Source: a virus. Taken from it: DNA of 50,395 bases. Position 1 is the stretch's first letter, and the number at the start of each line of letters is the position of its first letter. Position numbers and translations under genes: made by a program. Location: positions 1 to 50,395 of the IMG/VR virus record IMGVR_UViG_3300030107_000806, one strand, 5' to 3'. This document shows positions 4,608 to 49,504 of the stretch, one piece after another. The notes beneath the pieces are model-generated. The model had not been told where the DNA came from. It was given only the letters and a program-made list of their open reading frames with translations, and did no database searches.

Positions 4608-5051
4608 ATGAACGATATTGAAGCAACTATAAATTTACTTTTAGATGCTAAAAATTATAAAGATATGTTTAATAAAGATGTTTCATCTGTTGTTGAATAT
4701 ATTTTACCAGCTATAAAACTTAATCAATATAGAGTTTTTAGAAGAGGTGATAAACCTTATGCATATACAAGTTGGGCATATATGAATAAAGATTCATCAG
4801 AAAAATTTCAACAAACTGGTGTAATAGAACATGAGTCTTGGTGGAATAATGGTAATGAAGTTTGGCATATTGATACAGTTGTCGAAGAAGGTAATGATGT
4901 TCTTCCTATTCATAGGTGGACATCAAATAATATTGCTGAATTAAAAGGTGATAAAACAAAAATAAATTGGATAAGAATAGGAATGAAAAATAATAATTTT
5001 TATGTTAAAAAAACTGGACACGCATTTGCAAGGAGTGAAATAAATGGGTAG
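4608..5051 (+). CDS. HlyC-like toxin-activating lysine acyltransferase family protein
   Basis: A 147-residue protein whose middle closely follows the HlyC/RTX-activating acyltransferase family. Residues ~32-41 (ILPAIKLNQY) match the family block LPAIRANQY. Residues ~51-58 (YAYTSWAY) match VAYCSWA. Residues ~85-92 (VWHIDTVV) match the block containing the catalytic Asp of HlyC (Asp92), here Asp89. Known members move an acyl chain from acyl-ACP to Lys of RTX toxins. The catalytic His near the N-terminus of HlyC (His23) has no obvious counterpart here, so activity is uncertain. It overlaps the next virion gene by 8 bases, suggesting its target is a virion protein. No RTX toxin is visible in the window. 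Confidence 0.75.
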   Translation: MNDIEATINLLLDAKNYKDMFNKDVSSVVEYILPAIKLNQYRVFRRGDKPYAYTSWAYMNKDSSEKFQQTGVIEHESWWNNGNEVWHIDTVVEEGNDVLPIHRWTSNNIAELKGDKTKINWIRIGMKNNNFYVKKTGHAFARSEING

Positions 5052-6300
5052 TATATTTAGAAAAATAAAACGAATCGTTAAAAAAAATCCTTTAACTCGA
5101 ATAATTAAAAGAGTAGGTAAAGGAATTGCTGATGTTGGTAAAAAAACTTGGCAAGGTATTAAACGAATTGGTGGTAAAGCTATGGCAGCTTATGGTAAAA
5201 TAAGTAAGAAGCTTGGACCTATAGGTATGATAGGTCTGTCAATGGCTATGCCTTATTTACTTGGTGGCTTTAGTGGAGCTGCTGGTGGACTCTGGACAAA
5301 TTTTGGAACTAAAATGGGTGGAGTAATTGGTAAAGGCGGAACTGTTTTACAAAAAGGTTTAATGCATAGTCAAAATCCATTTTTAAAAGTTATGGGTTAT
5401 GCTGGTAAAGGAATGTATAATACTGCTAACTTTATTGGTGGAACTACTCGAGGTATTTCTCAAACTATTTCTAAAACTTTCGGACAATTTGCACAAGGAA
5501 ATGTATCACAAGGATTTGCAAATCTTTATCAGGGAACAACAGAAGTTTTATCTGGTAAAGCTGGTATGGGTACAATGAAATATATTGATTCTTCTATGTT
5601 CGCAAAAGCTATAGGAGTTCCGGGAAAACATATGACAGGTGTAAACTTAGCAACACAAAATTTAGGAACACTTGTTCAAACAGGTGGTGTTAATTTAGGT
5701 AATATGAATATAGGAAATAAATTTGCTTATGAAGCTATAAATAAATCTATGTTAAAAAATGAAGCATTTAAAAGATTAAGTGGTGAAGGATTAAAATATC
5801 ATAATACACTTGTTAATAATGTTGGCTTAGATGACCAAACAGCTTTCCAATATATTAGTAATAATGGTTATGACTCAGCAACAGGTATATTAGATAAGAC
5901 TGCATCAATGGATTTTAAAGCTGGTCTTAAACCAAATGAGTATGCTTGGACTGGTCAAAATATAAATAAAACTGTTGACGCTTATAAGTTACAAACTGGT
6001 GGTGGTTTTCATTATAAAGCAAAAAAAGATGGTGATGTATTTCAAACTGAAGAAAGTATCTTATCTAAAAAGAAATCATGGAAAGATGCCGCAGCAGCAG
6101 CAGCAAAAAATTTATTCTCAAATGACCAAGAAGAAACACCAGTATATGCACCTAATGCATATGAACAACTTAATTCTGTTCATCCTAATTATGCTGGTAC
6201 AGACATAACTGGTTCAGCAGATGCAGGATTTATAAGTACAGATATGAAAAAATGGTACGCATTGATGAATAAAAAAATGAATATAACGGGGAGTAATTAA
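5044..6300 (+). CDS. internal virion protein, membrane-active type
   Basis: A 418-residue protein. The first ~55 residues are strongly basic (KIKRIVKK, RIIKRVGKG). A Gly/Met-rich hydrophobic segment at ~60-85 could insert in a membrane. The remainder is Gly/Asn/Thr-rich with a short Ala run near residue 350. The start overlaps the acyltransferase end. Composition and location fit the ejected internal proteins of podoviruses, which form a channel during DNA entry; the sequence shows no enzyme motif. Confidence 0.6.
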   Translation: MGSIFRKIKRIVKKNPLTRIIKRVGKGIADVGKKTWQGIKRIGGKAMAAYGKISKKLGPIGMIGLSMAMPYLLGGFSGAAGGLWTNFGTKMGGVIGKGGTVLQKGLMHSQNPFLKVMGYAGKGMYNTANFIGGTTRGISQTISKTFGQFAQGNVSQGFANLYQGTTEVLSGKAGMGTMKYIDSSMFAKAIGVPGKHMTGVNLATQNLGTLVQTGGVNLGNMNIGNKFAYEAINKSMLKNEAFKRLSGEGLKYHNTLVNNVGLDDQTAFQYISNNGYDSATGILDKTASMDFKAGLKPNEYAWTGQNINKTVDAYKLQTGGGFHYKAKKDGDVFQTEESILSKKKSWKDAAAAAAKNLFSNDQEETPVYAPNAYEQLNSVHPNYAGTDITGSADAGFISTDMKKWYALMNKKMNITGSN

Positions 6301-22128: not shown

Positions 22129-23805
22129 CTAAAATTTATCGTCTGCATCATCGTTATCCGTAGGTTTTTCTGTTTCGTGTAGTCTTCCTGTGTCCTTATC
22201 ATAATATAAATAAGTTGCAGGTCCAGTCATTCCTACAAATCTATTCTTTAATACTCTTAGTGATGTCGTATTACGAATAACCTCATTGTCATTCTGTGCG
22301 TCTCTCTCTAATCCAAGCACCATATCAGATAGTTGAGCAATAGAACCACTACCTCTTAGTTGAGATAGGGATGTGACTGCTCCCTCTTCATGTCCTTTTC
22401 CATCCGGTCTTTTAAGATGTGATACAATAATCAAAGCACAATCTGTTTCTTGTACAAGTGTACGAAGCTTTGTCATAATTTCATCGAGTCCTTTTCTTTC
22501 ATCACCAAACTCTTGGGATGATACAACCATACTGATATGGTCAAGTACAATGAACTTACATTCTAAAGCTTTCGCCATGTATCTAACTCTCGATACAATA
22601 TTATCTACAGAATTAGAACCGAAATGATTATAGAAATAAAATCTACCAGAGCCAATAGTCTTGTTAAAATATTCTATCTTATCATCTTTACTTAATGATA
22701 TGTCTGGTCTTCTAAGTGGTAGGTTTGCTTCAACACCCATGATGTCAAGTGCTGTTATCTTTGGGCTTTCCTCAAGCATAATCATACCTATGTTTTGTTC
22801 AGTAGTTTTATAGATATGATAAACTAATTCTTTAATGACTGATGTCTTACCTAATCCAGTACCTGCTGTGATAGTCACTAACTCTCCACTACGAATACCA
22901 TAGGTTAATTCATCTAAACCTTTCCAACCATAGTCTGTTCGTGATTTAACTACAGGTTCTAATACCTCATCAAGTAATGATGAACCTTTTATAATTCCGT
23001 CTGGTGCATGGACAGGTGCATTCCACCAACACTTCATATACTCTTCATACTTTCTAGCACGAAGCATATCATTTGCGTCTTTGAAATTTTCTGGTAGCTT
23101 AACTATCTTTGCTTTTGCAGGGGCAAATAATTCTGCAACCTTTTTACTTTTCTCTCTACCTATCTCATCATTATCAAAGTTAATAACTATATTCTCAAAC
23201 TTATCAAGCCATGTATAACTTTTCTTAATGTCTTTAATAGCAGAAGCAACACCATTCTTAATACTAACAACAGGATATTTTGAACCGAGTAATTGATACA
23301 CACTCATAGCGTCAATCTCTCCTTCAGTTATGGTCACATACTTACCTCCATTGAATAGATGTTGTCCAAACAATCCAGCATTACTTGTTGAACCATTGAC
23401 AGAAAATTGTTTATCTTTTACAAACCTATTCTTATACCCTATGATAGTACCTTGCTCATCATAGTATGGATAGATATGTTTTGATATTAAACCTTGACCA
23501 TTATAAGAAACTTTAACTCCATATTTCTTAACAGTCTCTTCATTTATTCCTCTATCTTTTATAGCATGGAAACCACCTGCTACATTAGAAGAATAACTAC
23601 TTAAAATATTACTTGGTAATTCTTTTACTAACTCCATATTGTCGCCCTTCTCTTTAATTAATTGTATGTCCTCGCTGTCTGGTGGGAAGTAGTTCTCACA
23701 AGCAAAGCAATAACTACTACCATCTTCGTTAATACTTCTTGCGTCACTACTTCCGCACTTATCACAAGGTACATGGTATTCTACAAAATTTGATTTGTCT
23801 TCCAT
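22129..23805 (-). CDS. bifunctional primase-helicase, T7 gp4-like
   Basis: A 558-residue protein that primes and unwinds DNA at the fork. A zinc-binding domain is given by Cys14, Cys17, Cys33 and Cys36; the TOPRIM primase core by TITEGEIDA (~158-166) and INFDNDEIG; and the helicase by Walker A TAGTGLGKTS (~310-319), Walker B FIVLDHISMV and the IIVSHLKR motif near ~450. The acidic C-terminus (NDDADDKF) ends in an aromatic residue like the T7 protein, whose tail contacts the polymerase. It follows ssb closely. Confidence 0.95.
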   Translation of the reverse strand: MEDKSNFVEYHVPCDKCGSSDARSINEDGSSYCFACENYFPPDSEDIQLIKEKGDNMELVKELPSNILSSYSSNVAGGFHAIKDRGINEETVKKYGVKVSYNGQGLISKHIYPYYDEQGTIIGYKNRFVKDKQFSVNGSTSNAGLFGQHLFNGGKYVTITEGEIDAMSVYQLLGSKYPVVSIKNGVASAIKDIKKSYTWLDKFENIVINFDNDEIGREKSKKVAELFAPAKAKIVKLPENFKDANDMLRARKYEEYMKCWWNAPVHAPDGIIKGSSLLDEVLEPVVKSRTDYGWKGLDELTYGIRSGELVTITAGTGLGKTSVIKELVYHIYKTTEQNIGMIMLEESPKITALDIMGVEANLPLRRPDISLSKDDKIEYFNKTIGSGRFYFYNHFGSNSVDNIVSRVRYMAKALECKFIVLDHISMVVSSQEFGDERKGLDEIMTKLRTLVQETDCALIIVSHLKRPDGKGHEEGAVTSLSQLRGSGSIAQLSDMVLGLERDAQNDNEVIRNTTSLRVLKNRFVGMTGPATYLYYDKDTGRLHETEKPTDNDDADDKF

Positions 23806-23824: not shown

Positions 23825-24256
23825 TTAAAAGTCTTCTCCGTTTTCTTTGTCAGAGGTAAAGCCCTCTGCTACATCAAAGTCCTCGCCATAAGGCACGAGG
23901 TCTAAGACTTGTACTGCTTGTAGGTCTAAGCTTTTACCACTCTTACCTGCAAAGTTCCACTCAAATTCTTTGTAAAGAACTTTGATTTGTGAACCATTAC
24001 CTACCAATACATCAATAGGATTTTTCTTTGCGTCAACAAGTCTTGGCACAGGATTTTTTGTACCATCATTTCTTTCGACTTTTCTTTTAAGCTTAATGAT
24101 ATTACCTCTATCATCAGTCTTAACTGTTATCCCTCTGCTTTTAAATTCATCAGCAGTCTTATCATCAATGGCTAAATCCACTTGATAAACTGGGTCGAAT
24201 GTTGTATTGGGTCTAGTAATAGCACACCAATATGCTTTTCCTTCTACTGTTGGCAT
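23825..24256 (-). CDS. single-stranded DNA-binding protein, T7 gp2.5-like
   Basis: A 143-residue OB-fold-type protein. The start MPTVEGKAYWCAITRPN and the later YKEFEWNFAGKSGKSLDLQAVQVLDL block fit the phage gp2.5-like SSB family. The tail is acidic and ends in Phe (SDKENGEDF), the feature that in T7 docks on polymerase and helicase. GGAGGG sits just before the ATG. It is the first gene of the replication operon, behind its own promoter at 24321-24293. Confidence 0.88.
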   Translation of the reverse strand: MPTVEGKAYWCAITRPNTTFDPVYQVDLAIDDKTADEFKSRGITVKTDDRGNIIKLKRKVERNDGTKNPVPRLVDAKKNPIDVLVGNGSQIKVLYKEFEWNFAGKSGKSLDLQAVQVLDLVPYGEDFDVAEGFTSDKENGEDF

Positions 24257-24292: not shown

Positions 24293-24321
24293 ATTATATC
24301 ATACTTCTTGCTTCAAGTCAA
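24293..24321 (-). promoter_or_regulatory. sigma-70 promoter of replication operon
   Basis: Minus strand: TTGACT (24321-24316), 17 bases, TATAAT (24298-24293) with TGA before the -10. Between the boxes CTTCTTG and CAAGAAG form an inverted repeat that could be an operator or the tail of the preceding RNA. It is placed 40 bases upstream of the ssb start. Confidence 0.82.
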
Positions 24322-24339
24322 GAAGAAAGTTTATTTTAT

Positions 24340-25114
24340 TTGGGCGGTGGTTTCGCTGACAACCATATAACCACGCATTAAGTTAATTAAACTAGTATTG
24401 CGAGTCAACACCCAAAATTCTTAAACTTTCGTAAGGAGTGTGACAGGATTATCTTTTCTTCACAATCATTCTACTCGTCAGTAGACCCTTCTCCTTACGG
24501 AAATTTAAGTGGGTAGTTTTACGCAACGCATGTGTTCAGATGGCACTACCCAAACCTTTTGTTTAGTCAGTCTGGATTTTGGTTATGCCACTATGCTTTT
24601 TAAGATAACTTTTATGTGCGTTCTTTTTCAAACTTTTTATTGTGTTACCCCATAGCAGTAGAACTTAATCTTTCCCAAGCACCTACGCACTAAACAATCT
24701 ATTAACTTGGGTGTGTTTTATACTCACGATGTTAATTCACCGAGACTGGAACTTAATTACTGACCCATATCCAGTAGTGTCATTTAAGACTTTTCATTAG
24801 TAGTCAACCAAGTTAATTCTTTTTCGGATTTCTACGGAGGACTTATGGATTTACCTCCAACCTTTCACGAGCTATCCACCTATGAGATAACGCTACTCAG
24901 TACATACCTTCAACCCCTCATGCATTTGCACATCAAGATTAAAACCACTACCTTACAACTAGCTTACTGTTGTTCAGTCAGTAGAAACATATGTCTTGCA
25001 AAAACATATGTCCGAAACCTTTATTATATTATTAATTATATTATTAATATTATAATTAATATTATAATAATAACTATTAATAACTTTAACATAGTTATTT
25101 ATTTTATATATAAT
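24340..25114 (-). ncRNA. candidate large ornate structured noncoding RNA
   Basis: There is no credible protein gene from 24257 to 25168, yet the minus strand has its own promoter at 25149-25121 and many complementary segments. Paired segments (plus coordinates): 25011-25017 with 24822-24828 (7 bp); 24854-24858 with 24836-24840 (GGAGG/CCTCC); 24808-24817 with 24701-24710 (10 bp); 24771-24775 with 24745-24749; 24685-24690 with 24616-24621; 24586-24590 with 24541-24545; 24545-24551 with 24511-24517 (7 bp); 24491-24498 with 24431-24438, extended by 24504-24509 with 24420-24425; 24460-24464 with 24439-24443; and 24480-24484 with 24471-24475. Some pairs cross or compete, as in pseudoknots. Both ends are approximate. 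Size and phage setting recall the GOLLD/ROOL class, but I cannot assign a family. Confidence 0.65.
24985..25012. repeat. 11-base direct repeat with internal palindrome
   Basis: AAACATATGTC occurs at 24985-24995 and again at 25002-25012; each copy contains the palindrome ACATATGT. It lies near the 5' end of the candidate large RNA and could be part of its fold or a protein-binding pair. Confidence 0.6.
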
Positions 25115-25120: not shown

Positions 25121-25149
25121 ATTATATCATAGTTTGTTTCCAAAGTCAA
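25121..25149 (-). promoter_or_regulatory. sigma-70 promoter of the large RNA
   Basis: Minus strand: TTGACT (25149-25144), 17-base spacer, TATAAT (25126-25121), preceded by TGA. The predicted start is near 25114. It lies directly after the stop of the nuclease-like gene at 25169 and has no protein gene in front of it, which is the main argument that the following ~775 bases are a transcription unit. Confidence 0.8.
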
Positions 25150-25168: not shown

Positions 25169-25567
25169 TTATACCTGCGACACTTGGTCGCTATAAAACT
25201 CCTTGTTAAACATTTCTTTTATAGGAATAAGCACACATTTACTTGCCTTATTATCGCCTACATTCTTTGTCAACTTATCTTTATACTTATCCACAATTTT
25301 CTTTAGTGTTGATGTTTTAAATACAAGTGTACAAAATTCTTCCTTATCTTCTTCCAATCTATGAAACCAATAGTCAGATTTAGTAGCATAAATACCACTA
25401 GGTTTCCCTCTATATTCATACTCAATGGCTATGTTTCCAGTCTTCTTCCACCAATTTCTCTCTGACTTAACTTCAATGGTGCAGTTATTAAACATATCTT
25501 TTACTTTCTGTTCTTTAATCTGACCATACTTTAAATCAATATCAAAGTCTTTAAATCCCTTCTTCAT
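25169..25567 (-). CDS. PD-(D/E)XK-type nuclease-like protein
   Basis: A 132-residue protein. A Glu in the first helix (YGQIKEQKVKDMF), then TIEVKSE with an ExK pair at ~30-34, and GNIAIEYEYRGKPSGI followed by ATKSDYWF, together fit small restriction-fold or resolvase-like phage proteins. An acidic residue that would normally precede the ExK strand is not obvious, so activity is not certain. Its start overlaps the polybasic peptide stop (TAATG). Last gene of the early cluster, ahead of the large RNA promoter. Confidence 0.65.
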   Translation of the reverse strand: MKKGFKDFDIDLKYGQIKEQKVKDMFNNCTIEVKSERNWWKKTGNIAIEYEYRGKPSGIYATKSDYWFHRLEEDKEEFCTLVFKTSTLKKIVDKYKDKLTKNVGDNKASKCVLIPIKEMFNKEFYSDQVSQV

Positions 25568-49420: not shown

Positions 49421-49446
49421 GACGCTGCTAACAATTAAAATAATAC

Positions 49447-49475
49447 TTGACATTTAACGAAATATATGATATAAT
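49447..49475 (+). promoter_or_regulatory. sigma-70 promoter within tail region
   Basis: TTGACA (49447-49452), 17-base spacer, TATAAT (49470-49475), both perfect. Unlike the other three rightward promoters its spacer does not end in AGGTG. Expected to drive the coiled-coil protein and the following fibre-like gene. Confidence 0.82.
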
Positions 49476-49504
49476 ATATAAACTAATTGGGCAGATAGGA
49501 ACTT

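Follow-up and report, generated by a model that had tools for sequence, protein, structure and literature searches.

The window analyzed here, a virus record of 50,395 bases whose cultured relatives are Pelagibacter phages (HTVC115P being the closest), contains a noncoding region at positions 25149-24293 on the minus strand, between the genes for P0001 and for an ssDNA-binding protein (SSB), and the question is what this region encodes and on what it acts. An earlier note on this DNA had proposed a large, ornate noncoding RNA forming an independent unit of ~775 nt. Its premise that about 900 bases here lack a credible gene is borne out: apart from a 95-aa plus-strand frame, which homologous units do not keep, the region has no ORF of notable size, and a protein-coding test found no conserved open frame across those units, so that we rejected a protein-coding reading. 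A search of the region for tRNA and tmRNA was likewise negative. We find that the region is a mosaic on the minus strand, in which an AU-rich leader is followed by at least six structured RNA modules, D1, D2, M3, M4, M5 and M6; further copies of D1, D2, M4 and M6 are present in other viral contigs. The proposal of a large, pseudoknot-rich, noncoding stretch with its own promoter pattern holds, but in place of a single RNA of fixed architecture there are separable modules. The features are as follows.

25169..25567, minus strand: P0001, a small conserved protein (phrog_13596, of unknown function) 5' of the array, used as synteny anchor
25121..25149, minus strand: P_A, predicted promoter of the RNA unit, TTGACT-17-TATAAT with TG before the -10 box (extended -10), 11/12, at the same place in homologous loci
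25021..25114, minus strand: AU-rich palindromic leader after P_A, recognized by its sequence and present even in the shortest relatives without other modules
24822..25017 (R1 core 24829-24984), minus strand: D1, a manA-like RNA, from covariation and the manA alignment of relatives
24697..24822, minus strand: D2, a structured module of ~120 nt with stem TTAACTTGG/CCAAGTTAA and three inner helices, with covariation and no Rfam match
24556..24698, minus strand: M3, a putative module with stem TTGTTTAGT/ACTAAACAA, known from the window and one near relative only
24509..24557, minus strand: M4, an H-type pseudoknot with an exchangeable insert, AGGT-TT-GGGTAGT-GCCA...ACTACCC
24422..24507, minus strand: M5, a module found in few copies, whose stem CGTAAGGAG/CTCCTTACG encloses hairpins
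24338..24417, minus strand: M6, a pseudoknotted module of ~75 nt, GGGTG...CGCCC, with a TCGC/GCGA pseudoknot and GTGGTT/AACCAC
24293..24321, minus strand: P_B, predicted promoter of the SSB/replication operon, TTGACT-17-TATAAT with extended -10, equal in quality to P_A
23825..24256, minus strand: gp2.5-like SSB gene, first of the replication operon (phrog_112, E=6e-10)
22129..23805, minus strand: T7-type primase-helicase gene, second in the operon after SSB, from a family search

Promoter-like sites are frequent in AT-rich DNA (11 found versus 7.6 expected), and the promoter pattern alone is therefore little proof. We searched IMG/VR with both flanking proteins and obtained dozens of distinct homologous loci with the same gene order, in dozens of which the two-promoter layout is conserved. 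Both the strong minus-strand promoter and the separate promoter of the next operon (P_B at 24321-24293), as originally read from the window, are confirmed by these loci. The replication operon 3' of the array consists of the SSB, primase-helicase and polymerase genes, the SSB product matching Pfam SBB_T7 with E=0.01, under the cut-off. Across homologous loci, the P_A-P_B unit measures 148-828 nt, the window's being the longest: the 148-nt unit contains the AU-rich leader and a small hairpin, units of ~315-330 nt contain the leader and D1, and others span 500-830 nt. This suggests that the locus grows through module addition. Some relatives carry additional genes; in HTVC115P (L004:3544-4017) a lysozyme gene is located between P0001 and P_A, with similarly placed ORFs in many relatives and none in the window, and in L073 (~1388-1597) a 69-aa ORF with its own Shine-Dalgarno (SD) sequence lies between a D1-M4 array and the SSB promoter. 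The -35 box of P_B sits inside an inverted repeat (CTTCTTG..CAAGAAG, window 24325-24304), which is kept in relatives with a different sequence (e.g. AGCAC..GTGCT in L021) and is perhaps an operator or a processing hairpin. A plus-strand segment at 49430-49479 of the window matches the P_A promoter and leader start at 76% and may be a further promoter of this type.

We compared D1 with known RNAs. Its fold comprises an outer stem (TTTCGGA/TCCGAAA), a 5' hairpin, helices P1-P5 and a possible P4-P5 loop pseudoknot. The D1 pattern has 70 matching stretches in viral contigs, which together with the synteny set represent ~50 distinct sequences. RNAalifold on 48 sequences gave 34 pairs, with compensatory changes in 22; 93.9% of the cells are paired, a figure that drops to 36-47% when the partners are slid by 1-3 columns. 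The P5 loop is more complementary to the P4 3' strand within sequences than between them (4.75 versus 3.36 bp, 0 of 5000 permutations, with weight limited by the relatedness of the sequences), and the same permutation test on these related sequences also supports the P4 apical stem (3.59 versus 3.07). Since the P5 loop and the P4 5' strand are both complementary to the P4 3' strand, two pairings would compete for one strand. The window copy scores 133 bits with our R1 model and is itself among the input sequences of that model.

Rfam searches of the window and its relatives, at gathering and at permissive thresholds, returned manA (RF01745) only, in relatives and below the cut-off: 42.9 bits in L127, 40.2 bits (E=2e-7) in L192, 33.6 bits in L250 and 25.9 bits in the cultured phage HTVC008M, compared with a gathering threshold of 55.2 bits that none of the D1 copies checked reaches. 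The window copy of D1 has no manA match at E<=5, so that the Rfam check proposed in the earlier note, which could itself name no family, matched none. Matches to SpF11, ceN61 and Pseudomonadales-1 in the window (E<=5) were rejected as chance level. The L192 copy aligns to manA over the whole model and the HTVC008M copy is likewise full-length; the CUGAAnAA / GUAAGG / GGUA..AAUCC segments and consensus helices of manA are found, and the same helices covary in D1. L250 and L218 are D1-manA intermediates that carry CUGAAUAA as in manA. Aligning with manA but scoring below its cut-off, D1 is, judged by sequence, a divergent branch of manA-type RNA and by score not an Rfam member. manA has been described as a riboswitch candidate from marine metagenomes and T4-like cyanophages, with a possible pseudoknot marked (Weinberg et al. 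2010, PMC2864571), and has been reported in cyanophage S-CREM1 (PMC9964418). D1 relatives share its 5' hairpin, P1, P2 with CUGAAnAA...GUAAGG, P3, P4 and P5 with GGUA...AAUCC, as well as the occurrence in marine phages 5' of genes, whereas D1 in the window belongs, as one of several modules, to a long array ahead of a second promoter.

Several observations accompany the D1 searches. A ~79-aa protein family (..KFDDWLNKS..TYYRGYL..FDYEYIAVR) without a Pfam or PHROG match is repeatedly encoded right after D1 (L131, L138, L143, L163, L166 and others). The only match of the D1 pattern in genome_contigs, L198 (NHBP01000011.1), comes from a Planctomycetaceae MAG; this 9.8-kb contig is likely a mis-binned phage, its downstream gene matching that of phage contigs. 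L250:2540-3100 is a long noncoding stretch with M6, the D1 intermediate bearing CUGAAUAA and further hairpins, probably another large array. A weak R1 match in L205 (18.9 bits), apparently in coding sequence, was left out.

No Rfam match was obtained in scanned loci bearing D2, M4, M5 or M6. Compensatory changes are nevertheless found in 8 of 25 D2 pairs (98% of cells paired versus at most 48% when slid), in 4 of 12 M4 pairs, both pseudoknot stems included (pattern TGGC-TT-GGGTAGT-GCCA-[insert]-ACTACCC, 46 stretches), and in 9 of 19 M6 pairs (35 stretches), where the crossing helix is 98.9% paired and three of its four pairs have changed on both sides. The M5 stem shows compensatory changes in L199 and L204, as judged by eye. 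Taken over D1, D2, M4 and M6, the proposed pairs are formed in 94-98% of cells and in at most 52% in slid controls; shuffle controls leave shared ancestry in, and the D1, M4 and M6 sets were gathered by conserved sequence patterns. Some of the contigs are fragments, and for those from IMG/VR the host and habitat were deduced from relatives. The complementary segments noticed initially, some of them crossing, thus correspond to helices with compensatory changes in four modules, pseudoknots included, and the two checks suggested for homologous phages, for covariation and for a conserved protein frame, both left the noncoding reading standing.

Promoter and hairpin counts run high in low-GC DNA, and both strands fold better than shuffles (z = -3.8 for the minus and -3.65 for the plus strand, with 20 shuffles only), so that fold energy is not strand-specific and was set aside as evidence. 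These properties would suit plain AT-rich intergenic sequence in which complementarity arises by chance, an explanation with next to no probability in our view, which is refuted by the conservation of the modules, with their covariation, in many viral contigs. A strand assignment comes from the paired cells in the D1, D2, M4 and M6 alignments, which contain 336 G-U and 14 A-C combinations: the RNA strand is the modelled strand, i.e. the minus strand of the window. The same bias bears on the idea of a DNA-level element, in which palindromes would serve replication, recombination or packaging. The array adjoins replication genes, and its modules resemble mobile palindromes in the way they move and nest, but G-U is allowed where A-C is not, and the orientation to genes is fixed, which defines an RNA strand; we consider this idea very improbable.

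On which genes, then, do the modules act? Elsewhere, they are found directly 5' of Shine-Dalgarno sequences and start codons, nearly always in one orientation. An SD-preceded gene start is located at most 90 nt downstream in 35 of 58 D1 copies (2 on the mirror side), 25 of 55 M4 copies (0) and 10 of 23 M6 copies (0). D1 shares in this way the 5' UTR location of manA, although in the window indirectly, as P_B intervenes. A promoter-like site lies within 150 nt upstream of 35 of the 58 D1 copies, and some D2 copies have one of their own. By inspection of L157, L200, L202 and L204, D2 precedes genes as well, among them a primase-like gene (L200 and L205, translated start read by eye) and a small gene (L157). 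In the window, the SSB start codon follows the end of M6 by ~80 nt and that of M4 by ~250 nt, compared with ~19 nt for M4 in other phages.

Cultured phages provide two such arrangements. In HTVC008M, a T4-like pelagimyophage, D1 (R1 score 91.7 bits, E=1e-21) directly follows a TTGACA...TATAAT promoter pattern and directly precedes the gp32 SSB gene (L208:1427-2643, KC465899.1 ~4988-6204); a small hypothetical ORF is annotated over the start of the RNA. HTVC115P has an X5-M4 array ahead of its SSB gene. By DNA similarity, the window unit matches only HTVC115P among cultured phages and D1 only HTVC008M; the L207 and L230 arrays have no match in isolates, and the L207 contig is related to HTVC033P. 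A survey that applied Riboswitch Scanner to pelagimyophages did not report any riboswitch (PMC7029224), yet in HTVC008M the SSB gene is preceded by a manA-like RNA. Non-homologous SSB genes, gp32 in HTVC008M and gp2.5-like in the window, thus have the same RNA upstream in two unrelated phages. By analogy with phage T4, SSB might bind the leader and repress its own translation; T4 gene 32 is autoregulated and has a leader pseudoknot. The array before a gp2.5-type SSB gene and the lone D1 before gp32 would agree with such a scheme. We consider it improbable, however, since the genes after most D1, M4 and M6 copies are other than SSB, and since P_B intervenes in the window.

The modules are also exchanged and nested. 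A 38-nt module is identical in the D2 loop of L206 (1289-1326) and the M4 insert of L205 (13181-13218), a 62-nt module occurs in the M4 insert of L006 (416-477) and in D2 of L202 (2652-2709) and L204 (1234-1295), and another insert is common to D2 of L010, L200 and L139. Nested inserts have clean ends, and one insert can occupy loops of different larger modules. More than 30 listed loci have at least two modules on the same strand, some of these loci being overlapping fetches of one contig; the order D1-D2-...-M4-M5-M6 is frequent but not fixed. Because modules are mixed, matched and nested before genes in many marine phages, the region probably helps to control those genes.

These findings together lead us to favor, with slightly better than even confidence, the reading that the array serves the replication operon as a leader RNA, modular in build and acting mostly in cis. 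The P_A transcript would run through the array into the SSB operon, and a further transcript of this operon, lacking the leader, would start from P_B. The array would act mainly in cis on P_A-SSB transcripts, controlling or protecting the mRNA, and D1, D2, M3, M4, M5 and M6 would be separable domains, exchanged among marine phages and combined by them in series or one inside another, usually as 5' leaders. The transcription, the read-through and the action in cis are inferred from sequence. We count in support the synteny, the covariation, the G-U bias, the gene orientation, the HTVC008M and HTVC115P loci, the more than 30 arrays and the lack of a terminator; against it we count P_B between array and SSB in the window clade, the distance of M6 and M4 to the SSB start, and M3, which is without comparative support.

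The main rival starts from the position of P_B, which separates the array from SSB in the window clade and so allows for a free or processed P_A RNA. On this account, the P_A transcript would end or be processed before P_B and act in trans as a stand-alone large noncoding RNA, in analogy to GOLLD and ROOL. It draws on the P_A promoter, the lack of an ORF, the separate SSB promoter, the presence of this layout in dozens of loci and the dense pseudoknotted structure. We consider it rather unlikely: no terminator-like site was found between P_A and the SSB gene, the unit varies between 148 and 828 nt, single modules from it are found as gene leaders elsewhere, and no Rfam family is matched. Without an intrinsic terminator before P_B, the independent ~775-nt unit of the earlier note is established at its 5' end, by P_A, and not at its 3' end, and the GOLLD/ROOL type assigned to it fails against the Rfam covariance models of these families.

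Pelagiphages are among the most abundant ocean viruses, and to our knowledge almost nothing is known about their gene regulation. If the modular leader reading is extended beyond this locus, marine phages, many of them related to SAR11 phages, may share a recombining repertoire of RNA modules that form combinatorial leaders. It would include one class resembling manA and, in addition, four or more families not described so far, of which two are pseudoknots; with its members strung together and nested, it would represent a modular regulatory system without a described counterpart, a proposal we make tentatively and at just short of even confidence. No prior description of such module arrays was found in the literature searched, whose scope left most subscription journals outside. 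The words "intergenic", "promoter", "noncoding" and "untranslated" are absent from the main text of a pelagiphage transcriptome paper on other phages (PMC12753301). The modules provide searchable and testable models, and they bring many more phages into the orphan manA class. They also illustrate, in a natural case at a single syntenic locus, how RNA domains evolve through shuffling and nesting.

Among known systems, tandem riboswitch leaders and the phage glutamine riboswitch, described in a methylophage (PMC9004378), resemble the array in having serial structured RNA domains 5' of genes in marine phages, but the array modules are more numerous, nested, without a known ligand and, apart from the related manA, without an Rfam model. 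The leader of T4 gene 32 is similar as a structured leader with a pseudoknot 5' of an SSB gene, a position that D1 takes before gp32 in HTVC008M; here, however, the modules are common to many unrelated genes, and SSB binding is an analogy only. With GOLLD and ROOL the region shares its large size, its many pseudoknots and its phage context, whereas the window array is modular and variable in make-up, and its modules are used singly upstream of genes.
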